Made by a program: the position numbers and the translations under genes | DNA from: Verrucomicrobiota bacterium | Lineage (GTDB): Bacteria; Verrucomicrobiota; Verrucomicrobiia; Opitutales; UBA953 | Direction of reading: 5' to 3' | Assembly: GCA_026397955.1 (NCBI GenBank) | Contig: JAPLTV010000059.1 | Span: forward strand, 62,001 to 126,000 | Length of the DNA: 64,000 nucleotides | The notes under the pieces: generated by a model | What the model was told of the DNA's origin: nothing | The model's database searches: none | Seen by the model: the letters and a program-made list of their open reading frames with translations, nothing else | In this document: positions 36,421-45,083 of the stretch, one piece after another | Layout of the letters: each line of letters starts with the position of its first letter | Numbering within the stretch: the stretch's first letter is position 1

Positions 36421-36927
36421 TCAGACCTCGACGGCCGTCGGCTCGTCGGTCGGCATGGCCATATCCGGCATCACGAAGTTGGGCATCGTGAGATCCGGAA
36501 TCTCGACGGACTGCGACAGGTCGAAGTCTTGGACCGCGTCGGTCAGCAGGCGCAGAGGCAACTCGGTTCCGCCTAGGACCTTCTCCTCGGCGGCTGGGGA
36601 ATCGACATAGGAAAGCAGACCGGAGTATTCGGCCGGAATGGTCACCTGCAACTCGACGAGCACCAGCGCGAGCAGGCAGAGGTGCGCGAAAGAACGGCCC
36701 ATCCGCTGACCGAAGGCATGCAGCCAGACCATCACGCCGGAAAGGGAACGCTCTTCGCGACGGCTAAGAAAGCTGAGCTGGGCCTTGTGGAGGCGAACCC
36801 GCGACTGAAAGCGGGCGCGAAGCTCAGGGGACTGACCGAGGGCGGCACGCAGACGGGCGACCTGCCCTTCGGAGGCATTACCCTCGAGGAACGCGGCCAC
36901 CAGGGATTCGAATTCGGAAGTGCTCAT
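36421..36927 (-). CDS. Putative anti-sigma factor, single-pass membrane protein
   Basis: A 168-aa protein that overlaps the ECF sigma gene by four bases (ATGA), the usual position of an anti-sigma factor. The N-terminus (MSTSEFESLVAAFLEGNASEGQVARL) resembles the helical sigma-binding region of FecR/RseA-like proteins. A hydrophobic segment is at about 82-102. The C-terminal tail repeats MPNFVMPDMAMPTDEP. No HxxxCxxC zinc motif is present. The call rests on context and topology, not on a recognised domain. Confidence 0.6.
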   Translation of the reverse strand: MSTSEFESLVAAFLEGNASEGQVARLRAALGQSPELRARFQSRVRLHKAQLSFLSRREERSLSGVMVWLHAFGQRMGRSFAHLCLLALVLVELQVTIPAEYSGLLSYVDSPAAEEKVLGGTELPLRLLTDAVQDFDLSQSVEIPDLTMPNFVMPDMAMPTDEPTAVEV

Positions 36928-37514
36928 CCGCGGAACTCATCTCCCATGAGTTCGCGCAAGGCTTCGCGGGCGCGGTTGATGCGACTTTTCACGGTACCGA
37001 TGGAGAGGCCGAGGTCTTCGGCGATCTCTTCATAGGACATATTGCGGACGTTGCGCATCGTCAGGATACGAGCGTGTTCCGGCTTCAATTGTTCCATGCA
37101 TTCGGCAACTTTGTTGACGAATTCGTTATGCTGGGCCTCGTGGCCGGGCCCCTGGGCGCCGTCCGAAAGGATGTCATGCAAGGTGGCGCCAGGATCGTCA
37201 CCGAGGTCGGCGTCAAGCGACATGGACTGATCGCGCTTCCGACGGCGCCAGTACCAGTAACGGTTACGGGCCAGATTCGTGCCGATCTGATGGATCCAGG
37301 TCGAGAAAGTCGCCGTGCCGCGAAACGAAGCCAGCACGCGATGAGCCCGGATGAAAGTGTCCTGGGTAATCTCTTCCGCGTCCTGACGATTGCGCAGCAA
37401 GGAGAAGACCTTAGCGAAGATACGGCCCTGATATTTCAGGACCAATTCGTTATAAGCCGAGAGATCCCCTTCACGGGCGCGGTCCAATGCGGACTGGTCG
37501 GCTTCGGTCTCCAT
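36924..37514 (-). CDS. ECF-type RNA polymerase sigma factor
   Basis: Sigma-70 family factor of 196 aa from the chosen start. Region 2 reads KYQGRIFAKVFSLLRNRQDAEEITQDTFIRAHRVLASFRGTATFSTWIHQIGTN, shown here only to mark the DAEEITQDTF and FSTWI motifs of ECF factors. Region 4 is MSYEEIAEDLGLSIGTVKSRINRAREAL, a helix-turn-helix that binds the -35 element. The ATG at 37514 (METEADQSAL) was chosen; an upstream Met would add 21 Pro/Leu-rich residues. Coupled to the anti-sigma-like gene and divergent from the GTPase cassette, so it may control that cassette or itself. Confidence 0.88.
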   Translation of the reverse strand: METEADQSALDRAREGDLSAYNELVLKYQGRIFAKVFSLLRNRQDAEEITQDTFIRAHRVLASFRGTATFSTWIHQIGTNLARNRYWYWRRRKRDQSMSLDADLGDDPGATLHDILSDGAQGPGHEAQHNEFVNKVAECMEQLKPEHARILTMRNVRNMSYEEIAEDLGLSIGTVKSRINRAREALRELMGDEFRG

Positions 37515-37632
37515 TAAGGGAAGATTAAGAGGGGGTGAAGAAAACAGGTCGGAATCGACCCATAATCGTGGTGACATATCTTTACATTCCCCCCTCCCTA
37601 ATCAACCTATTTCAGACCCCACCTCGGAGCCG

Positions 37633-39366
37633 ATGTTCACTTCCAGCAAGAAACCCCCTACCCTCTCCTGGGTCGACTGCCTCAGCGGAGCCCGGGGACT
37701 CATTGACAGCCTTCCGTCCTCCCTGCCCGGCGATAGTGCCAACCCGTCCCTTTCCTTGGTCAAAAGCGGCGAAGCTGTCGCCTTGGAACCCTCCGGCCAC
37801 GGCGCCGCCCTCGTCAACGGCGCCCCGCTCCGTCAGCGCCTCGAAATCTCCGAAGCCACGACAATCCAGCTACCGTCCGCCCTCCTGGTCGCCGCCCCAC
37901 CCGACCAGCAGAATTTTGCCTTCATCCGTACGGACCTCTGGGTCCTCTTCGACGCCCAGACCGGCGATCAGCTCGGCGAATTCCCCCCCCAACGCCTCCT
38001 CGACGTCGCCCAGGAACTCGGCCGCGCCACCGATACCCTCGCCTGCACGCCGCAGGGACTTGAGGTCGGCTTTAGCCTTTCGCAGATCGCGCCGCTGCTT
38101 TCCCCTCAGGAAGAAGCGCCCATCCGGCCGAGTGGCAAAGCGCTACTCGCCGCCGAACAGAATCGCGGTGCGCACCTCTGCCCGGTCTGCTGGACGCGCT
38201 TCGACGCAGGCGACGCGTTGAGCATCGCGGTCCACGAAGACCTGCGCGGCGACCCAATCCTTGGCTCCGACGTGCGCCTGCGCTTCCAACCGACGCGCTT
38301 CAACGACCAAGGCCTCGCTCTCGACCCGATGGGCCTCGCGTGCACCGACATCGCCTGCCCGCATTGCCGACGCCAGCTGCCGCCCGGCTATCTCGACCGC
38401 CCGCACCGCATCATCTCGCTCATCGGCGCGCCCAGCGCCGGCAAGTCCTACTACCTCGCCGTACTTACGCGCACACTGCAGGACCGCCTGCCGGAGGACT
38501 TCAACCTGGCCTTCAAGGATGGCGACCCCAGCGGCAACATGCTGCTGAACCAGATGCGCAACACGCTCTTCTCCGCGGCCACGCCAGAAGACGCGCTTCT
38601 CGGCAAGACGGCCCTCGAAGGCGCCACTTACGAGAAACTGCCCCGCCTCGGACGCATGGTCTCCCTGCCCCGTCCGTTCATCTACTCCATCAGCCGCCCG
38701 GGCCAGCAGCGCAATGAGACCTCGGTCATTCTCTACGATAACGCCGGCGAACACTTCGAGCCTGGCATCGATATCCATGACTCGCCCGGCGCGATGCACG
38801 TCGCGACGTCGAGCGGACTCATCTTCCTCTTCGACCCGACCGCCAACGCGCGCTTCAAAGCCAAACTCGTCGGCGTCGAGGACCCGCAGTTCACGCTCAA
38901 AGGACGCATCGACCAGCAGGACAGTATCCTGGCCGAAATGGAGACCCGCATGAAGCGCGTCCTCGGACTGGCCCAGGACGAACGCATCAAGACCCCGCTC
39001 GCCTTCGTCGTCGGCAAGTCCGACACCTGGGAGAAGCTCTTGAGCTCCCCGCTCGAACCGATCGTTAAATCCGGTGCACTCGACCTTGCCGCCGTCGCCC
39101 GCAACTCCGCCCGCGTCCGCGAAGTCCTCGTGACGCTCTGCCCCGGACTCGTCGCCTCGGCGGAATCGCTCGCGGAACAGATCAGCTACTTTGCGGCTAC
39201 GTCCTTCGGACACACCCCAGTGATGATCCAAGCCGGACTGAACAAGGGCCGCATCGCCCCTGACCCGCAGCGCCTCGCGCCAGCGCACGTCGAAGAACCT
39301 CTCTATTGGCTGATGCACCTCGCTTCCCCGGCGATGTTCCCCTCGTCCGAAAACTCCGCCCGCTGA
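37633..39366 (+). CDS. Zinc-ribbon P-loop GTPase (double-GTPase/DO-GTPase2-like)
   Basis: A 577-aa protein. The N-terminal ~170 residues are beta-rich and FHA-like in feel (GAALVNGAPL). A split zinc ribbon follows: C183-P-V-C186 and C242-P-H-C245. Then comes a P-loop NTPase domain: Walker A GAPSAGKS (265-272), the G3-like DNAG (369-372), and a G4-like GKSD (461-464). This order, zinc ribbon directly before IxLIGAPSAGKS-YYLAVL, matches the GTPases that pair with GAP1 proteins in bacterial conflict-type operons, as I recall the family. The next gene starts within its stop codon (TGATG) and is such a GAP1 protein. Nucleotide specificity is inferred from the GKSD motif. Confidence 0.75.
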   Translation: MFTSSKKPPTLSWVDCLSGARGLIDSLPSSLPGDSANPSLSLVKSGEAVALEPSGHGAALVNGAPLRQRLEISEATTIQLPSALLVAAPPDQQNFAFIRTDLWVLFDAQTGDQLGEFPPQRLLDVAQELGRATDTLACTPQGLEVGFSLSQIAPLLSPQEEAPIRPSGKALLAAEQNRGAHLCPVCWTRFDAGDALSIAVHEDLRGDPILGSDVRLRFQPTRFNDQGLALDPMGLACTDIACPHCRRQLPPGYLDRPHRIISLIGAPSAGKSYYLAVLTRTLQDRLPEDFNLAFKDGDPSGNMLLNQMRNTLFSAATPEDALLGKTALEGATYEKLPRLGRMVSLPRPFIYSISRPGQQRNETSVILYDNAGEHFEPGIDIHDSPGAMHVATSSGLIFLFDPTANARFKAKLVGVEDPQFTLKGRIDQQDSILAEMETRMKRVLGLAQDERIKTPLAFVVGKSDTWEKLLSSPLEPIVKSGALDLAAVARNSARVREVLVTLCPGLVASAESLAEQISYFAATSFGHTPVMIQAGLNKGRIAPDPQRLAPAHVEEPLYWLMHLASPAMFPSSENSAR

Positions 39367-41498
39367 TGCCCCTCCAACTTATCTTCACTTCGGCGCCGCA
39401 GGGACTCACTCCCGGCCGCAGCGGTTATTGCACCGTCGCCCGCCACCGCGCCATCCCTGAACGCCTGGCCCAGCTGCTTGAATCCGTCGGCACGCCGCAT
39501 GAACGGCCCGAAGGCGAGACGTTCACTCTCCGCATGCTCGAAGCCGGAGGTAAGAACTGGTGCGTACTCTCTCGCTTCGTCGCCCGTGGTCTCGACTACA
39601 CCCAACGCGACAACCGCCTGGCCCATCACCTGATCTTCTCCTTGGAAGAAGCCGCCCTCCTGCCTCCGCCCGCCGCCATCGCCGGACGCTGGAAAGGCTG
39701 GCGCGATGAATGGTCCGGCGCCCCCACCTGGCTCGAAGGCGAAGATCGACCGCTCCAATTGGAAACACAGACGCCGCTGACGCCCGCCGTGACGTGGCGT
39801 GAAGAAACCGGCACTGGCGCCAAGGCCGCTTGGCTCATCAACGCCTCCGGCCCCGCCGCCGTCGGCCTGCTCAATCCGCCCGAAACCCTGCGTCTCCTCC
39901 GCCTCCTGGCCGAGGCCTCCGCGCTGCTCGGCAAATCCGCTTGGGCCGCCACCTTCACCACCGACGCCACTACCACGGGCAGCGACGGCTTCCTCTGGGC
40001 CGTCAACTCGACCTCCGCCGCGGTGACGATCGACTTCACCACCGCGAAATCCCTGCCAGCTCCCTCGGGCGATATCGCCCGTCAGGCCGCCGCCGGACTG
40101 ACTTCGCCCAAAGCCCCCGCCGGACAACCGCAACGTCGCGCCGCCTCCGCCTCCGCCTCCCCCGCCAACGGCAATAACTCGGTCGCTTGGATCATCGGCG
40201 GAATCATCATCCTCGCGGCTGGCGCCACAGCGCTCGTCATGCTGAACCGACGACCCGAACCCACGCCTCCCCCGGTCGTCGTCGAAGTGAGGTCCCAACC
40301 CACGCCGGAAAACGCGAAGTCCGATGAGATCCTGAAAGCCAACCGAGCCCTCACCGAGATTCAGGGCCTGATGGAGTCCGACGACTTCATGGCCGCCGCC
40401 AAGTTGTGGGCCGAGACGAGCATGCTTTCGCCGACCTTCGTCCGTAACTACCGCGAACAAATCCTGCCTCGTATCCTCAGCAACTTCTCGGCCAGCGTGA
40501 CCAAACAGCTGCTGACCCGACTGGACCGACCCGGCGTCCTCAACGACCCCAAGTCCCTGCAGGAATCGATTGCCGAAGCCAAGGAAGCCCTTCGCCTCGG
40601 CGCTGAGATCAAGGTGCCACAGGATGAGTCATGGAAGCGTCTGCAAGCCTGCCTCGATCGTGCGCAGTCGCTGACTAACATCGAAGTGCGGCCGACGATG
40701 GTCATCCCGGGCGAATGGCGGACCGGCGAATCCGGCCCGAACTCCCCTTCCCAAGCCGACTTCCCGCTCTCTCGTTCCGCCACCGACGCCGTGGCGAAGT
40801 TCGTCGAGGCCTCCGGCGCCAGCCAGCGTGAGTCCGTGCAGATTCGCATCCGCCTGCTCGCCTTCACCTCCCCTCACCTCCGTGACGACCGTACGAAATA
40901 CCTGAGCGGCGAGATCCGCCGTACGCCACAGTCGACGTGGATCGAATCCTCGCCCGAGCCCGGCAAGCTGCCGGCGATCGGCATCAATCTCAGCAACCGA
41001 CGCAACGAGGTCTCCCTGAACTTCCCCACCGGCGAAGGCGCGCGCGCCGGCGCTAATCGCCTCATCGAGGTGATTCTCCCGAAAGGCGATCGTCAGTGCT
41101 TTGCGCTCGTCGGCGATCTCAAGGCGCTGCAGCCACTGAACCTCGGCCCGGATGCCCTGGTGCTCGACGCTGATACGGCTGTCATCCGCCCCGCTCCCTG
41201 GGCCGAAAGCGCGGTCAACGCCTTCATTTGGACCAACGGCTCGATCGGACTTTATCCGGAAGGACACGAGTTCCCTGACCGCGACCTCCCCTCGATTCGC
41301 GCCACCCGCTCGGTCCTCGACACCGACATCATCCGGCTCGAAACGAAACAAGGACCTGGCACGCCGCCCTACGAGATCGTCGCCCAGCGTCGGAAACTCT
41401 TCAAGGAAGGTAAGTTCATGCAAGCCGGCGCTCCGTGGTCGATCCAAGCCATCGACGCCAACGGCGCCGCCGGACCTCGCCTCATCGAATTCCGCTGA
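39366..41498 (+). CDS. GTPase-associated protein 1 (GAP1, N2-type) membrane protein
   Basis: A 710-aa protein. The N-terminal domain has LIFTSAPQGLTPGRSGYCTVARH at its start, written here across residues 4-26, and is followed by GKNWCVLSRF and DNRLAHHLIF. These are the hallmarks I recall for the GAP1-N2 domain. A single membrane segment lies at about 272-293 (VAWIIGGIIILAAGATALVML) after a Ser/Ala/Pro linker, so the GAP1 domain is probably cytoplasmic and the rest outside the membrane. The outer part (295-710) is helical, then beta-rich, and unrecognised. ATG at 39366 overlaps the GTPase stop. Partner of that GTPase by context. Confidence 0.75.
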   Translation: MPLQLIFTSAPQGLTPGRSGYCTVARHRAIPERLAQLLESVGTPHERPEGETFTLRMLEAGGKNWCVLSRFVARGLDYTQRDNRLAHHLIFSLEEAALLPPPAAIAGRWKGWRDEWSGAPTWLEGEDRPLQLETQTPLTPAVTWREETGTGAKAAWLINASGPAAVGLLNPPETLRLLRLLAEASALLGKSAWAATFTTDATTTGSDGFLWAVNSTSAAVTIDFTTAKSLPAPSGDIARQAAAGLTSPKAPAGQPQRRAASASASPANGNNSVAWIIGGIIILAAGATALVMLNRRPEPTPPPVVVEVRSQPTPENAKSDEILKANRALTEIQGLMESDDFMAAAKLWAETSMLSPTFVRNYREQILPRILSNFSASVTKQLLTRLDRPGVLNDPKSLQESIAEAKEALRLGAEIKVPQDESWKRLQACLDRAQSLTNIEVRPTMVIPGEWRTGESGPNSPSQADFPLSRSATDAVAKFVEASGASQRESVQIRIRLLAFTSPHLRDDRTKYLSGEIRRTPQSTWIESSPEPGKLPAIGINLSNRRNEVSLNFPTGEGARAGANRLIEVILPKGDRQCFALVGDLKALQPLNLGPDALVLDADTAVIRPAPWAESAVNAFIWTNGSIGLYPEGHEFPDRDLPSIRATRSVLDTDIIRLETKQGPGTPPYEIVAQRRKLFKEGKFMQAGAPWSIQAIDANGAAGPRLIEFR

Positions 41499-41501
41499 TC
41501 C

Positions 41502-44450
41502 ATGCAGGTCGAACGCCTCATCGCCCGCATCCGCGGCCAGCTCGAGCTCGGCACCCCCGACCTGGAAGCGCGTTCCCTCGCCGGCGAATACGCCGCACTC
41601 TGCCAACGCGTCCGCGAACGCCTCGAACAGTGCGCGACGCTCGTACGCAGCGGCAATGAGCACGCCGCTTTCCAGGCTGCGGAATCCGACCCCGACCTGC
41701 TCGGCCTCTGCGCCCTGCTCAGTTTCGCGGAGTCCGACCGCTGGCACGCCCTTTGCCGTGAACGCGGCCTGCCCGCCGGCTTCCCGCTCGATGGCCAGCA
41801 CGTCCTCGCCGTCGAAGGCCTCTACGGACGCGAGATCGGCGAAAGCCACCCGCTCTACCGCGATTACCGTGACGCCATCCGTCGCCGCGAAGAGGACCGC
41901 GCCCTTTCGGTGTTACGCTCGATCGTCCGCATCAACCCGGACGACCCCAACGCCCGCTCCGAACTCGCCCGTCTCTCCGCCAAGTTCCTCCGCGAATCGC
42001 TCGGCAAGGTCGCGACCTTCTTCGAGCAAGGCCGTGAAGAAGAAGCTGTCGAGCTCATGAACCGCATGGAACGTTTCGGCGCGAACGATCTCGCCGACGA
42101 ACCGCGCTGGGATGACGCCCTCGCCCGCCGTGTGGCCTGGCTCCGCTCGAAGGCTGCCCAACAGGTCGCCCTGCTCGTCGCCGAAGCCGCCGAAGCGCGC
42201 GCCGGCGGCCACTGGGAAGCCTGCGCCGCTTCGCTAGGCCGCGTCCGCTCGCTCGAACGCGACCATCAGCTCACGATTTCAGCCGGAGTCTCCGCCGAGA
42301 TCGTCGAGCTCGAGGCCTGGGCCGGCGAACTGGCCGCCATCGCCGAAGCCGAGGCCAGCCTGCGCGCCACGATCGAAGGCCTGAACGACGAATGGGCCAC
42401 CCTCCAGCAAGAAGCCGCCCGAGGCTCCTCGCCGGCCATCCTCATCGTGCGCCTGAGCTCATGGCTCGAGCGCGCGACACCCCAGGCCGAACGTCTGCCG
42501 GAAGGCATCCTGCGCGAAGCCCGCGCCCTCCGCCAGAACACCCGCGCCCGACTGAACCGACGCTACATGGTGATGACCTCTTCCTGGGTTGCCGGCCTAC
42601 TGCTGGTCATCGCCGGCGTGGTCTGGTGGAACATCCTGAAGACACAGGAAGAAGAATCCCGTGACCGCTTTTCCGAAGCCACGCGCCTGATTGAACTCTA
42701 CGACCACCCCGCGGCTCTCACGGCGCTGGATGAATTCGAAAAAGGAGGCATCGCCGCCGCCGACCAAGCCACCCGCAAGGCGCAGACGGTTCCGCTCCGT
42801 CAGCGCTTGGCCACGCAGAACGCCGATGAGCAGCGCCTACGGCTCGAAGCACTGGCCCTCGCCGACCGTCGCAAACAAGGCCTGACCTTGGGCAACCTCG
42901 CTGAGACCGAAAGCCGTACCGCCAAGTATCTCCAGGAGTTCAACCTCGTGGGCGGCACGCTCCAGATCCGACTCAAGGCCATCCTCCCAGAACCCGAAGG
43001 CCTACTTTCCGCCTGCCGACAGATGTTGGATCGCACCCGCAACGACGTCGCCACCCAGATTGCTACGCTCAATAAAGCGATGGGCGACGAAAACGTCACC
43101 GACCTCACCAAGGCGGCCGAAGCCCTCGAACACCTCCGACTCCTACTCAAGACCTTGACCGACGCGAAGGATAAGGACCTCGACTCCGCCTTGGCCGCCG
43201 CCGATCGCGCCGAACTACGCCTCTCCAGCGAACGTAAGACCATCGCCGCGCTCAAGAGCCTCGGCAACGCCGCCGACCTCGTGGGCTACCTCGCCGCCCT
43301 GTCCGATACCGCCGCGAACACCGCCGGCGAGAAGTCCGACCTCAGCACCCGCGCCTCCTTCGTCTTCACCCGCGCCCCCACGCTGCAGGCCCTCCCTCGC
43401 TCAGCGCTCGCCCCGCGCGTCGGCGCGATGTGGGACGCCGCCGCCACCGCCGACGCCACCGGCATCTTCAATCCGACCACGCTCACCGACGTCGAACAAC
43501 GCGTCCTGCGCTCGCTCTCTGATACCTCCTTGGCGGATTCGCTCCGCAGTTATCAGGTAAATGTCTACTCGATTCGCGGAAGCGACGCGGGACGGACGGC
43601 CTACGTGATCGGCGAGATCGTCGAATCGAAACGGACCATCACCGACGGGGTTGAGTTCACCCAGAAGGCCAAGGAGCTCACCCGCGAAGGAGCTGTCATC
43701 GAGACCACCTGGAGTCGCCGTGAATTCAATAACGGCGTCCGCGCCGGCGAAGAGATCACCAAGCCGACCACAATCAGCGAACTGGATTTCATCCGGCAGG
43801 TCAGCCGCTTCCAGGACGCCAAGACGGGCAAGCTTCTTGAACCGCTCATCCGCACGATGGACCGCGTACGCCGCAGCGACTCGCGCTACCCCGAACTGCG
43901 CGCCTACCAGCTGCAGGAACTCTACAAGCTCGCGACCACCCGTCCCGAAGCCTGGGGTCTACTCTTCTCGCCGTCCGCCCAGCGCGACGCCGATCAACTG
44001 CGCCGCATCACGCAGAATTCGCTGCGTCCCTACGACTTCCTCTTCAAGGCCAAGTGGGCCGACATCAAACTGGAACTCGGTGCTTTCCTGACTCCCCCGG
44101 GAGGCGCTGGCTACGCCGAAGAGGCCCGCTTCTGGCGCGCAACCTTCGCCAACCTCCGCAACCGTAAGCTGATTTTCGCCGGCTGGGTCGGCCGTGACGG
44201 CAAGCCAGTACTGCGCGAGACGATTAAGGGCAGCGCCTTCTACGGCCTCGATAACGAAGGCAAGTCCACCGTACTCTTCCGCGTCGGCGACGATGGCGAG
44301 GTCAAGCGCGTCGCCGAAGCCGCGCCCCTCACCCCGCTCCTCCGCTACCCTGGCACGGTGGCCGAAGCCGCACAGGCAGCTGGCATCCCGAAAGGCTTGC
44401 TCACCCCCGACGGCGGCTGGGAAACCCTCCTCCAAGGACGAGATCTCTGA
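41502..44450 (+). CDS. Large helical membrane protein of the GTPase cassette
   Basis: A 982-aa protein of unknown function. Residues 1-350 are strongly helical with TPR or coiled-coil character (many Ala, Glu and Arg heptads). A single membrane segment is at about 355-378 (SSWVAGLLLVIAGVVWWNIL). The rest (380-982) is helical to about 620 and then mixed. No enzyme motif was found. The topology parallels the GAP1 protein before it, with a cytoplasmic N-terminal half and a long extracytoplasmic half. It starts three bases after the GAP1 gene and ends three bases before the next, so it belongs to the same operon. Confidence 0.7.
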   Translation: MQVERLIARIRGQLELGTPDLEARSLAGEYAALCQRVRERLEQCATLVRSGNEHAAFQAAESDPDLLGLCALLSFAESDRWHALCRERGLPAGFPLDGQHVLAVEGLYGREIGESHPLYRDYRDAIRRREEDRALSVLRSIVRINPDDPNARSELARLSAKFLRESLGKVATFFEQGREEEAVELMNRMERFGANDLADEPRWDDALARRVAWLRSKAAQQVALLVAEAAEARAGGHWEACAASLGRVRSLERDHQLTISAGVSAEIVELEAWAGELAAIAEAEASLRATIEGLNDEWATLQQEAARGSSPAILIVRLSSWLERATPQAERLPEGILREARALRQNTRARLNRRYMVMTSSWVAGLLLVIAGVVWWNILKTQEEESRDRFSEATRLIELYDHPAALTALDEFEKGGIAAADQATRKAQTVPLRQRLATQNADEQRLRLEALALADRRKQGLTLGNLAETESRTAKYLQEFNLVGGTLQIRLKAILPEPEGLLSACRQMLDRTRNDVATQIATLNKAMGDENVTDLTKAAEALEHLRLLLKTLTDAKDKDLDSALAAADRAELRLSSERKTIAALKSLGNAADLVGYLAALSDTAANTAGEKSDLSTRASFVFTRAPTLQALPRSALAPRVGAMWDAAATADATGIFNPTTLTDVEQRVLRSLSDTSLADSLRSYQVNVYSIRGSDAGRTAYVIGEIVESKRTITDGVEFTQKAKELTREGAVIETTWSRREFNNGVRAGEEITKPTTISELDFIRQVSRFQDAKTGKLLEPLIRTMDRVRRSDSRYPELRAYQLQELYKLATTRPEAWGLLFSPSAQRDADQLRRITQNSLRPYDFLFKAKWADIKLELGAFLTPPGGAGYAEEARFWRATFANLRNRKLIFAGWVGRDGKPVLRETIKGSAFYGLDNEGKSTVLFRVGDDGEVKRVAEAAPLTPLLRYPGTVAEAAQAAGIPKGLLTPDGGWETLLQGRDL

Positions 44451-44453
44451 ACG

Positions 44454-45083
44454 ATGTCACGCCCCACCCAATTCCGCCTCCGCTGGAAAGGCGCCGTCAC
44501 CGGCCCCTTCCCGCTCCTGCGCGTGAGCGAGATGCTCCGCGCCGGCGAGATCAGCCTTCTCCATAATATCGAAGTCGATGACTCATGGATGACGGTGCGC
44601 GATTACTTCCGTGCCATCGGGCTCAGCCGCACAACCTCAGCCTCTTCCACGGATATTGCTGGCCACGGCGCCGACGCTCCGCCGCCTCCGCCTGGTGCCG
44701 AACTGACGCTCGGCGAGTCGCTCACGCCCAACGACGCCCGCAACGCCGCTGGCGAATCGCTCGAGCGCTCCGTCCGCGAAGGCTACCTCTGGTGCGGCTC
44801 AACCTTCCTGCTGCCTCCGCTCTTCGCGCTCCTGATCTACATGGTCTACATCTTAGACAGCGACCACCAGATCTCACGGACGATGCTACTCATCCTGCTC
44901 GGCTTCACGACTACGCCGGCTGCGCTCCTCCCGATTCTCTTCGTCCGGAAGCTCGGCCAGACGCTCGAACAAGAAGGCCTGTCTGACATCCGCCAAACCC
45001 AGGGAAATCTCGTAATCGTCCTCGGTTTCCTGAGCCTGGCCCTCTGGATGCTCTGCTTCTTCGTCCTCCTGCCCGCCCGCTAA
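44454..45083 (+). CDS. GYF_2-domain membrane protein of the GTPase cassette
   Basis: A 209-aa protein. The first 55 residues form a GYF_2 domain: FRLRWKGAVTGPFPLLRVSEML, then RAGEISLLHNIEVDDSWMTV, with the typical GPF and late Trp. These domains bind Pro-rich peptides. A Pro-rich linker (PPPPPGAE, near 75) precedes three membrane segments at about 110-130, 134-155 and 183-206. Last gene of the four-gene cassette. A second GYF_2 protein is encoded at 56043-57311. Confidence 0.75.
   Translation: MSRPTQFRLRWKGAVTGPFPLLRVSEMLRAGEISLLHNIEVDDSWMTVRDYFRAIGLSRTTSASSTDIAGHGADAPPPPPGAELTLGESLTPNDARNAAGESLERSVREGYLWCGSTFLLPPLFALLIYMVYILDSDHQISRTMLLILLGFTTTPAALLPILFVRKLGQTLEQEGLSDIRQTQGNLVIVLGFLSLALWMLCFFVLLPAR

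Follow-up and report, generated by a model that had tools for sequence, protein, structure and literature searches.

Operons that pair a DO-GTPase with a GAP1 protein have hitherto been called conflict systems from gene neighbourhoods alone, and the locus described here raises the question of whether one branch of them might instead act as a machine of the cell envelope. The locus lies in the window, that is, the whole stretch of 64,000 nucleotides that was analysed (G000:C93:62001-126000), from a member of the Verrucomicrobiota (Opitutales, UBA953). Open reading frame calls place four plus-strand genes, A, B, C and D, at 37633-45083, with the ATG of B overlapping the stop of A as TGATG and with gaps of 3 bases between B and C and between C and D; these coordinates confirm the layout given by a first-pass annotation of the same DNA. 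Gene A (37633..39366, +) encodes a zinc-ribbon GTPase of 577 aa, gene B (39366..41498, +) a GAP1 protein of 710 aa, gene C (41502..44450, +) a protein of 982 aa, and gene D (44454..45083, +) a protein of 209 aa with a GYF_2-type domain at its N-terminus and three membrane segments. Every locus of the window's genus that extends far enough downstream has the order A-B-C-D, which also recurs in other families, and this arrangement is not chance. The survey of gene neighbourhoods proposed by the first-pass annotation has thus found the four genes together, and in order, in relatives.

The first two genes are those by which such systems are recognized. The first-pass annotation had seen in A a DO-GTPase-type switch, and in the HMM search A itself reaches 24.7 bits against Pfam DO-GTPase2, under the curated cut-off of 27, yet this model was matched by all 25 A homologues scanned; judged by these profiles, A is a divergent DO-GTPase2. 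In the alignment of 25 homologues the zinc-ribbon cysteines, the P-loop, a YDNAGEHFEP motif and GK[SC]D are invariant, and the residues to which the annotation had drawn attention hold up as invariant or nearly so: all four of Cys183, 186, 242 and 245 in the zinc ribbon (38179..38367, +), G265, G270, K271 and S272 in the P-loop GAPSAGKS (residues 265-272; 38425..38448, +), and G461, K462 and D464 in the G4-like motif GKSD (461-464; 39013..39024, +). An FHA match in one A homologue (E 7.3e-6) suggests that the N-terminal region of A is FHA-like. A GYF-like stretch considered at residues 90-170 was discarded as unsupported, with profile comparison giving just 6%, and a few homologues carry an internal stop codon. 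As in GAP1-N2 systems, the zinc-ribbon DO-GTPase gene lies upstream of the GAP1 gene and adjoins it. B matches Pfam GAP1-N2 at 58.9 bits (cut-off 24, E 7.5e-16), as do 43/43 B homologues scanned, so that the assignment made by the annotation stands in the HMM search. In the AlphaFold2 model of B (pLDDT 85), a GAP1 part (1-245) is followed by a membrane helix (273-293), a helical region (314-436) and a beta-rich region (440-710), and hydropathy (2.35) sets the single membrane segment at residues 273-291 (40182..40238, +). Neither GAP1-M nor GAP1-C was found by Pfam in the 43 B homologues, and L134, a protein closer to the usual type, shows GAP1-M weakly (19.6 bits, below the cut-off of 24); residues 125-245 of B, folded in the model, may be a diverged form of GAP1-M/GAP1-C. 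The part after the membrane segment differs strongly by lineage, being short in gut Opitutales and several hundred residues long in Verrucomicrobiaceae, as a sensing module might show. The annotation had found this outer half of B unlike anything known, and profile and fold searches likewise returned no sequence match or clear fold match to it. In the model of B, the GAP1 part can be aligned throughout its length with TagF of type VI secretion (PDB 9t0n; Z 6.3, 218 residues, rmsd 5.3; Foldseek E 0.059), but this likeness is weak, comes with no sequence match, and is taken as a lead only.

C is the conserved third gene of the operon. C and its homologues matched no family of Pfam, NCBIfam or PADLOC above cut-off, sub-threshold TPR-like matches being all that appeared, which agrees with the annotation's failure to place C in any known family; C represents a new protein family. 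Its model (pLDDT 85) is helical and TPR-like before the single membrane segment (356-374; 42567..42623, +), and then helical, with two beta regions in the long C-terminal part. Lysine and arginine are more numerous before than after this segment in 40/42 homologues, and by this charge rule the N-terminus of C is predicted to lie inside and the long C-terminal part outside. The annotation had given long outer parts to both B and C; the charge rule supports this for C, but for B it gave no clear orientation, and its C-terminal half would lie outside as we infer it. Fold searches with C returned common helical-repeat matches only; a part of it weakly resembles the BamD fold (Z 8.2), and such matches turn up often among TPR-like folds. 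The TagF lead had prompted a TssM/IcmF-like identity for C, which gained no support: no TssM was among the fold matches listed, and no sequence match was found. FNIII was not matched in A-D or in C homologues by sequence search. D by itself does not match Pfam GYF_2, which was found in 5/20 D homologues (best E 1.6e-4), and profile-profile comparison gives the D domain (44475..44612, +) an 86.7% probability. The annotation's GYF_2 protein with three membrane segments is upheld in its segments, and its domain type has some support from homologues and profile comparison, but not from a direct Pfam match. The number of membrane segments that it had given, one in B, one in C and three in D, agrees with hydropathy.

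A regulatory gene pair adjoins the operon. The divergent sigma-factor gene of the window (36924..37577, -), of ECF type, matches Pfam sigma-70 regions 2 and 4, and behind it lies a gene (36421..36927, -) for a protein of 168 aa with one membrane segment, which by position and hydropathy is likely an anti-sigma factor. Within the window's genus, almost every locus has the divergent ECF sigma gene next to A, with the likely anti-sigma gene behind it, and the pair has the same place in ten loci from other Opitutales, of gut type, whose neighbours are otherwise different. At the anti-sigma position in L086, the protein reaches 20.4 bits against zf-HC2, just below the cut-off of 22.2. Between the sigma gene and A, a TGACA-type element is conserved in the window's family (window 37490-37650), and it is possibly an ECF promoter. 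By its position, the sigma factor may control the A-D operon, and the sigma/anti-sigma pair would then probably tie the expression of the operon to envelope stress.

Relatives are encoded in 430 stretches that came from scanning the sequences of named genomes, most of them assembled from uncultured bacteria, and 78 loci were kept, by title almost all from Verrucomicrobiota (Opitutales and Opitutae, Puniceicoccales, Verrucomicrobiaceae and Chthoniobacteraceae), with two or three titled as other organisms and probably belonging to mislabelled bins. In the window's family, A was matched in 55/61 genomes, in five of which, all of genus g2, the match covers the N-terminal region only; outside this genus, the GTPase is present in 50/53 genomes of the family (in one as fragments). 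Across the phylum, A was found in 32/194 genomes and GAP1-N2 in 30/194, with A and B mostly adjacent, and A is absent from 162/194. For other families, which are numbered here, the sample is small: A is nearly fixed in f30 (19/23) and patchy in f14 (21/55). On these counts, the operon is no core set of the whole phylum, yet it is stable in some families. Three members of the window's genus that lack A also lack GAP1-N2, through either concerted loss or a shared assembly gap. Most genomes of genus g4 keep B, even where it is on another contig, and the GTPase there is often without B, C and D beside it. In genus g2, a GAP1-N2 protein of 467-489 aa occurs without the GTPase in 5/8 genomes (L125:9100-10503 +; L126:8914-10383 +), its gene in L126 adjoining an aspartokinase-type gene, and a separate protein of ~156 aa resembles the N-terminal region of A only. 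Among Puniceicoccales relatives (L077, L078, L079, L082, L085 and L133), the GTPase gene was seen without adjoining B, C or D, and GAP1-N2 proteins with frames of about 1000-1200 aa were seen on other contigs of related genomes. An apparent giant GAP1 fusion of >3300 aa in L098 is explained by a masked stretch of N in the sequence.

Throughout the window's genus, the operon is set in constant surroundings, with the sigma pair before A B C D; we take the neighbours to be hisC and ptsI on one side of the sigma pair and the operon, and rsfS, nadD, lpxI, panB and gpsA on the other. Pairwise distances over 30 loci correlate among A, B and C with a Mantel r of 0.96-0.98, and correlate with those of ptsI at 0.85-0.91 (A vs ptsI, 0.89). 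For close pairs, dN/dS is 0.03-0.12 in A, 0.08-0.16 in B, 0.07-0.17 in C and 0.10-0.37 in D, so all four genes are under purifying selection. No plasmid, phage or viral contig carried a detectable relative of A. This inheritance speaks against a mobile defence cassette, because the operon is near-fixed in the window's family and constant in order, is kept by purifying selection, tracks the housekeeping neighbour ptsI in its distances, and has no plasmid or phage carriers.

In other families of Verrucomicrobiota, the core does not stand alone. Outside the window's family it is often followed, and in L106 preceded, by three further genes, E, F and G, and this motor-like continuation of the operon is new here, as is the conserved third protein of a new family. 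E of L094 matches Pfam MotA_ExbB at 36.6 bits (cut-off 22.9), the transmembrane motifs of E are conserved in 12 members, and E is thus assigned by sequence to the MotA/TolQ/ExbB type. F and G are one-pass proteins whose N-terminal membrane segment starts with a conserved Asp, invariant in G and replaced in F of L104, and is followed by a coiled coil. Beyond this coiled coil, neither has a Pfam or PDB sequence match to ExbD/TolR or MotB, but their layout, with an N-terminal membrane segment and the Asp at its start, fits such proteins, and it is from this that we infer a role for them as stator partners. Strong homologues of F (E below 1e-30) are present in 14/194 genomes, all 14 of which have A (Fisher p 6e-13), an association partly expected because F was discovered beside A; they share a contig with A or C, and the survey adds that close F homologues were not seen without A. 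In family f30, which has PilM/PilO-like genes, a PilM-like gene follows the core after C (58.7 and 42 bits, cut-off 27). In the window's family, E was found in 0/21, and the window's genome has five other MotA_ExbB genes, none of which matches the E profile. Because they are absent from this family, the motor-like and PilM-like modules need not reveal the role of the four-gene form. Genome G139 of f30 holds two copies of the core (L112 and L113), one followed by a PilM-like gene and the other by E-F-G. Two such operons include a PrsW-type membrane protease (L106:11577-12800, -; L107:2893-4164, -), with GYF_2 clear in the former and sub-threshold in the latter. In family f7, a small calcineurin-type phosphoesterase gene (L120:4138-4635, -) follows A-B-C, and phosphoesterases of this type are listed as effectors of GAP1-N1 systems (Kaur et al. 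2020, PMC7159879).

What kind of system, then, do A-D encode? With confidence that is evenly balanced, we read them as a GTP-switched machine of the inner membrane that senses or remodels the cell envelope, in envelope signalling or stress. This is the best of the explanations because the core is conserved, the output modules are exchangeable, and an ECF sigma gene stands alongside, across families; the genome-by-genome co-occurrence of A and B and the vertical inheritance of the core also count for it. The first-pass annotation, too, had preferred signalling or the envelope to defence, and its preference gains from the absence of an effector, the lineage-core and vertical character of the operon, the ECF sigma factor, and the motor-like and pilus-platform-like genes of relatives. 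Against such a machine count the patchiness in other families (f14), as expected of accessory systems, the GAP1-N2 protein of g2 without a GTPase and the GTPase of g4 often without adjoining B, C and D, as well as the absence of motor-like and PilM-like modules from the window's family and the want of a MotB/TolR sequence match in F and G. An anti-phage or anti-invader conflict system of the GAP1-N2 class, in which the GTPase and the GAP1 protein would act as a threshold and C or D would be the effector, harming the membrane or stopping the invader, is unlikely. Such a system would suit the published DO-GTPase/GAP1 classification, planctomycete membrane GAP1 and GYF proteins included (PMC7159879), the patchiness in some families, the exchange of downstream modules between families, which resembles effector swapping, and the motor module, which recalls Zorya ZorAB (PMC11890865). 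However, the operon encodes no nuclease, toxin or known pore effector and has no meaningful PADLOC match, as the annotation's remark on missing nucleases and toxins had indicated. Anti-phage systems are typically patchy, mobile and found in defence islands; in the window's family, A occurs in 55/61 genomes and is single-copy, vertical, low in dN/dS and syntenic among housekeeping genes, with no plasmid or phage carriers, but f14 is patchy.

Two further explanations keep the envelope as the site of action. Surface motility or attachment, through a GTPase-controlled, proton-driven complex like Myxococcus MglA/AglRQS/Glt of which the window has a reduced or motor-sharing form, is quite unlikely. 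E-F-G is composed like AglRQS, in which a TolQ-like protein is joined by two one-pass proteins of TolR-like type (PMC3169522), a GTPase switch and a TPR-like one-pass scaffold are present, and the window's genome has, at other sites, five generic MotA_ExbB genes that might be shared; but no motor lies beside the operon in the window's family, no homology to Glt proteins or MglA is shown, F and G are like TolR/MotB by layout only, and the carriers are mostly uncultured. A scaffold for envelope biogenesis, for instance one that builds the outer membrane or peptidoglycan, with the GTPase as a timer of assembly and no sensing step, is very unlikely: the PilM/PilO-like genes of f30, the long C-terminal part of C and its weak BamD likeness would suit it, but the operon is dispensable, being missing from 162/194 sampled Verrucomicrobiota, and BamD-type matches are usual for TPR-like folds.

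If A-D form a GTP-switched envelope machine, the outer, lineage-variable part of B would sense a state of the envelope, and B's GAP1 domain, acting through the membrane, would set the nucleotide state of A; a further input, from phospho-peptides, may come through the FHA-like region. In its GTP-bound form, A would then engage the helical part of C in the cytosol, and the long outer part of C would pass a signal or force outwards, while D, as a GYF-type adaptor, might recruit proline-rich partners. In other Verrucomicrobiota, the core would drive or gate a MotA/TolQ/ExbB motor-like or PilM-like module, and the window's family would keep the core only. A branch that is inherited like core genes, lies beside an ECF sigma gene, and is operonic with a motor-like or PilM-like module in relatives provides a concrete and testable alternative to the conflict label, and offers a new bacterial GTPase-GAP1-scaffold complex for purification.

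Among known systems, the nearest are the GAP1-N2 'GTPase-centric conflict systems', which were predicted from gene neighbourhoods alone and whose description includes GAP1-M, FNIII repeats and effectors (Kaur et al. 2020, eLife, PMC7159879). The operon shares with them a zinc-ribbon GTPase gene with a GAP1-N2 gene after it, a GAP1 protein with a membrane segment, and a GYF protein that has membrane helices, like that of planctomycete GAP1-N2 operons (PMC7159879). It differs in its single GTPase gene, in that GAP1-M was not detected and FNIII, tubulin, HSP70 and kinase modules are absent, in the conserved third protein of ~1000 aa, in relatives with motor-like or PilM-like modules, and in being core and vertical in the window's family. 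No effector domain was found in A-D, whose order is fixed in the window's genus. Because the searches here did not recover GAP1-M, FNIII or effectors, and the main text of that paper makes no mention of MotA, TolQ, ExbB or PilM, the operon is not filed as a member of the conflict class, and on its sequences we place it as a distinct branch near the GAP1-N2 systems. Relatives of the window have in common with Myxococcus xanthus AglRQS-Glt a single TolQ-like channel with a pair of one-pass partners, and an envelope complex centred on a GTPase (PMC3169522), but ExbD/TolR homology could not be detected in F or G, Glt homologues are not shown, and the module is absent from the window's family. With Zorya ZorAB, they share a MotA/TolQ-type channel and a one-pass partner outside flagella (PMC11890865), but no other Zorya protein was recognized, a GTPase and GAP1 are present instead, and none was found on plasmids or phages. 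Both likenesses, the second of them looser, are analogies. A presumably belongs to another GTPase family than MglA. Tentatively, the seven-gene operon A-G could be an undescribed GTP-switched, proton-driven envelope machine, analogous rather than homologous to MglA/AglRQS/Glt, of which the window's four genes would be the switch and scaffold core, with a motor that was lost, never had, or is borrowed.
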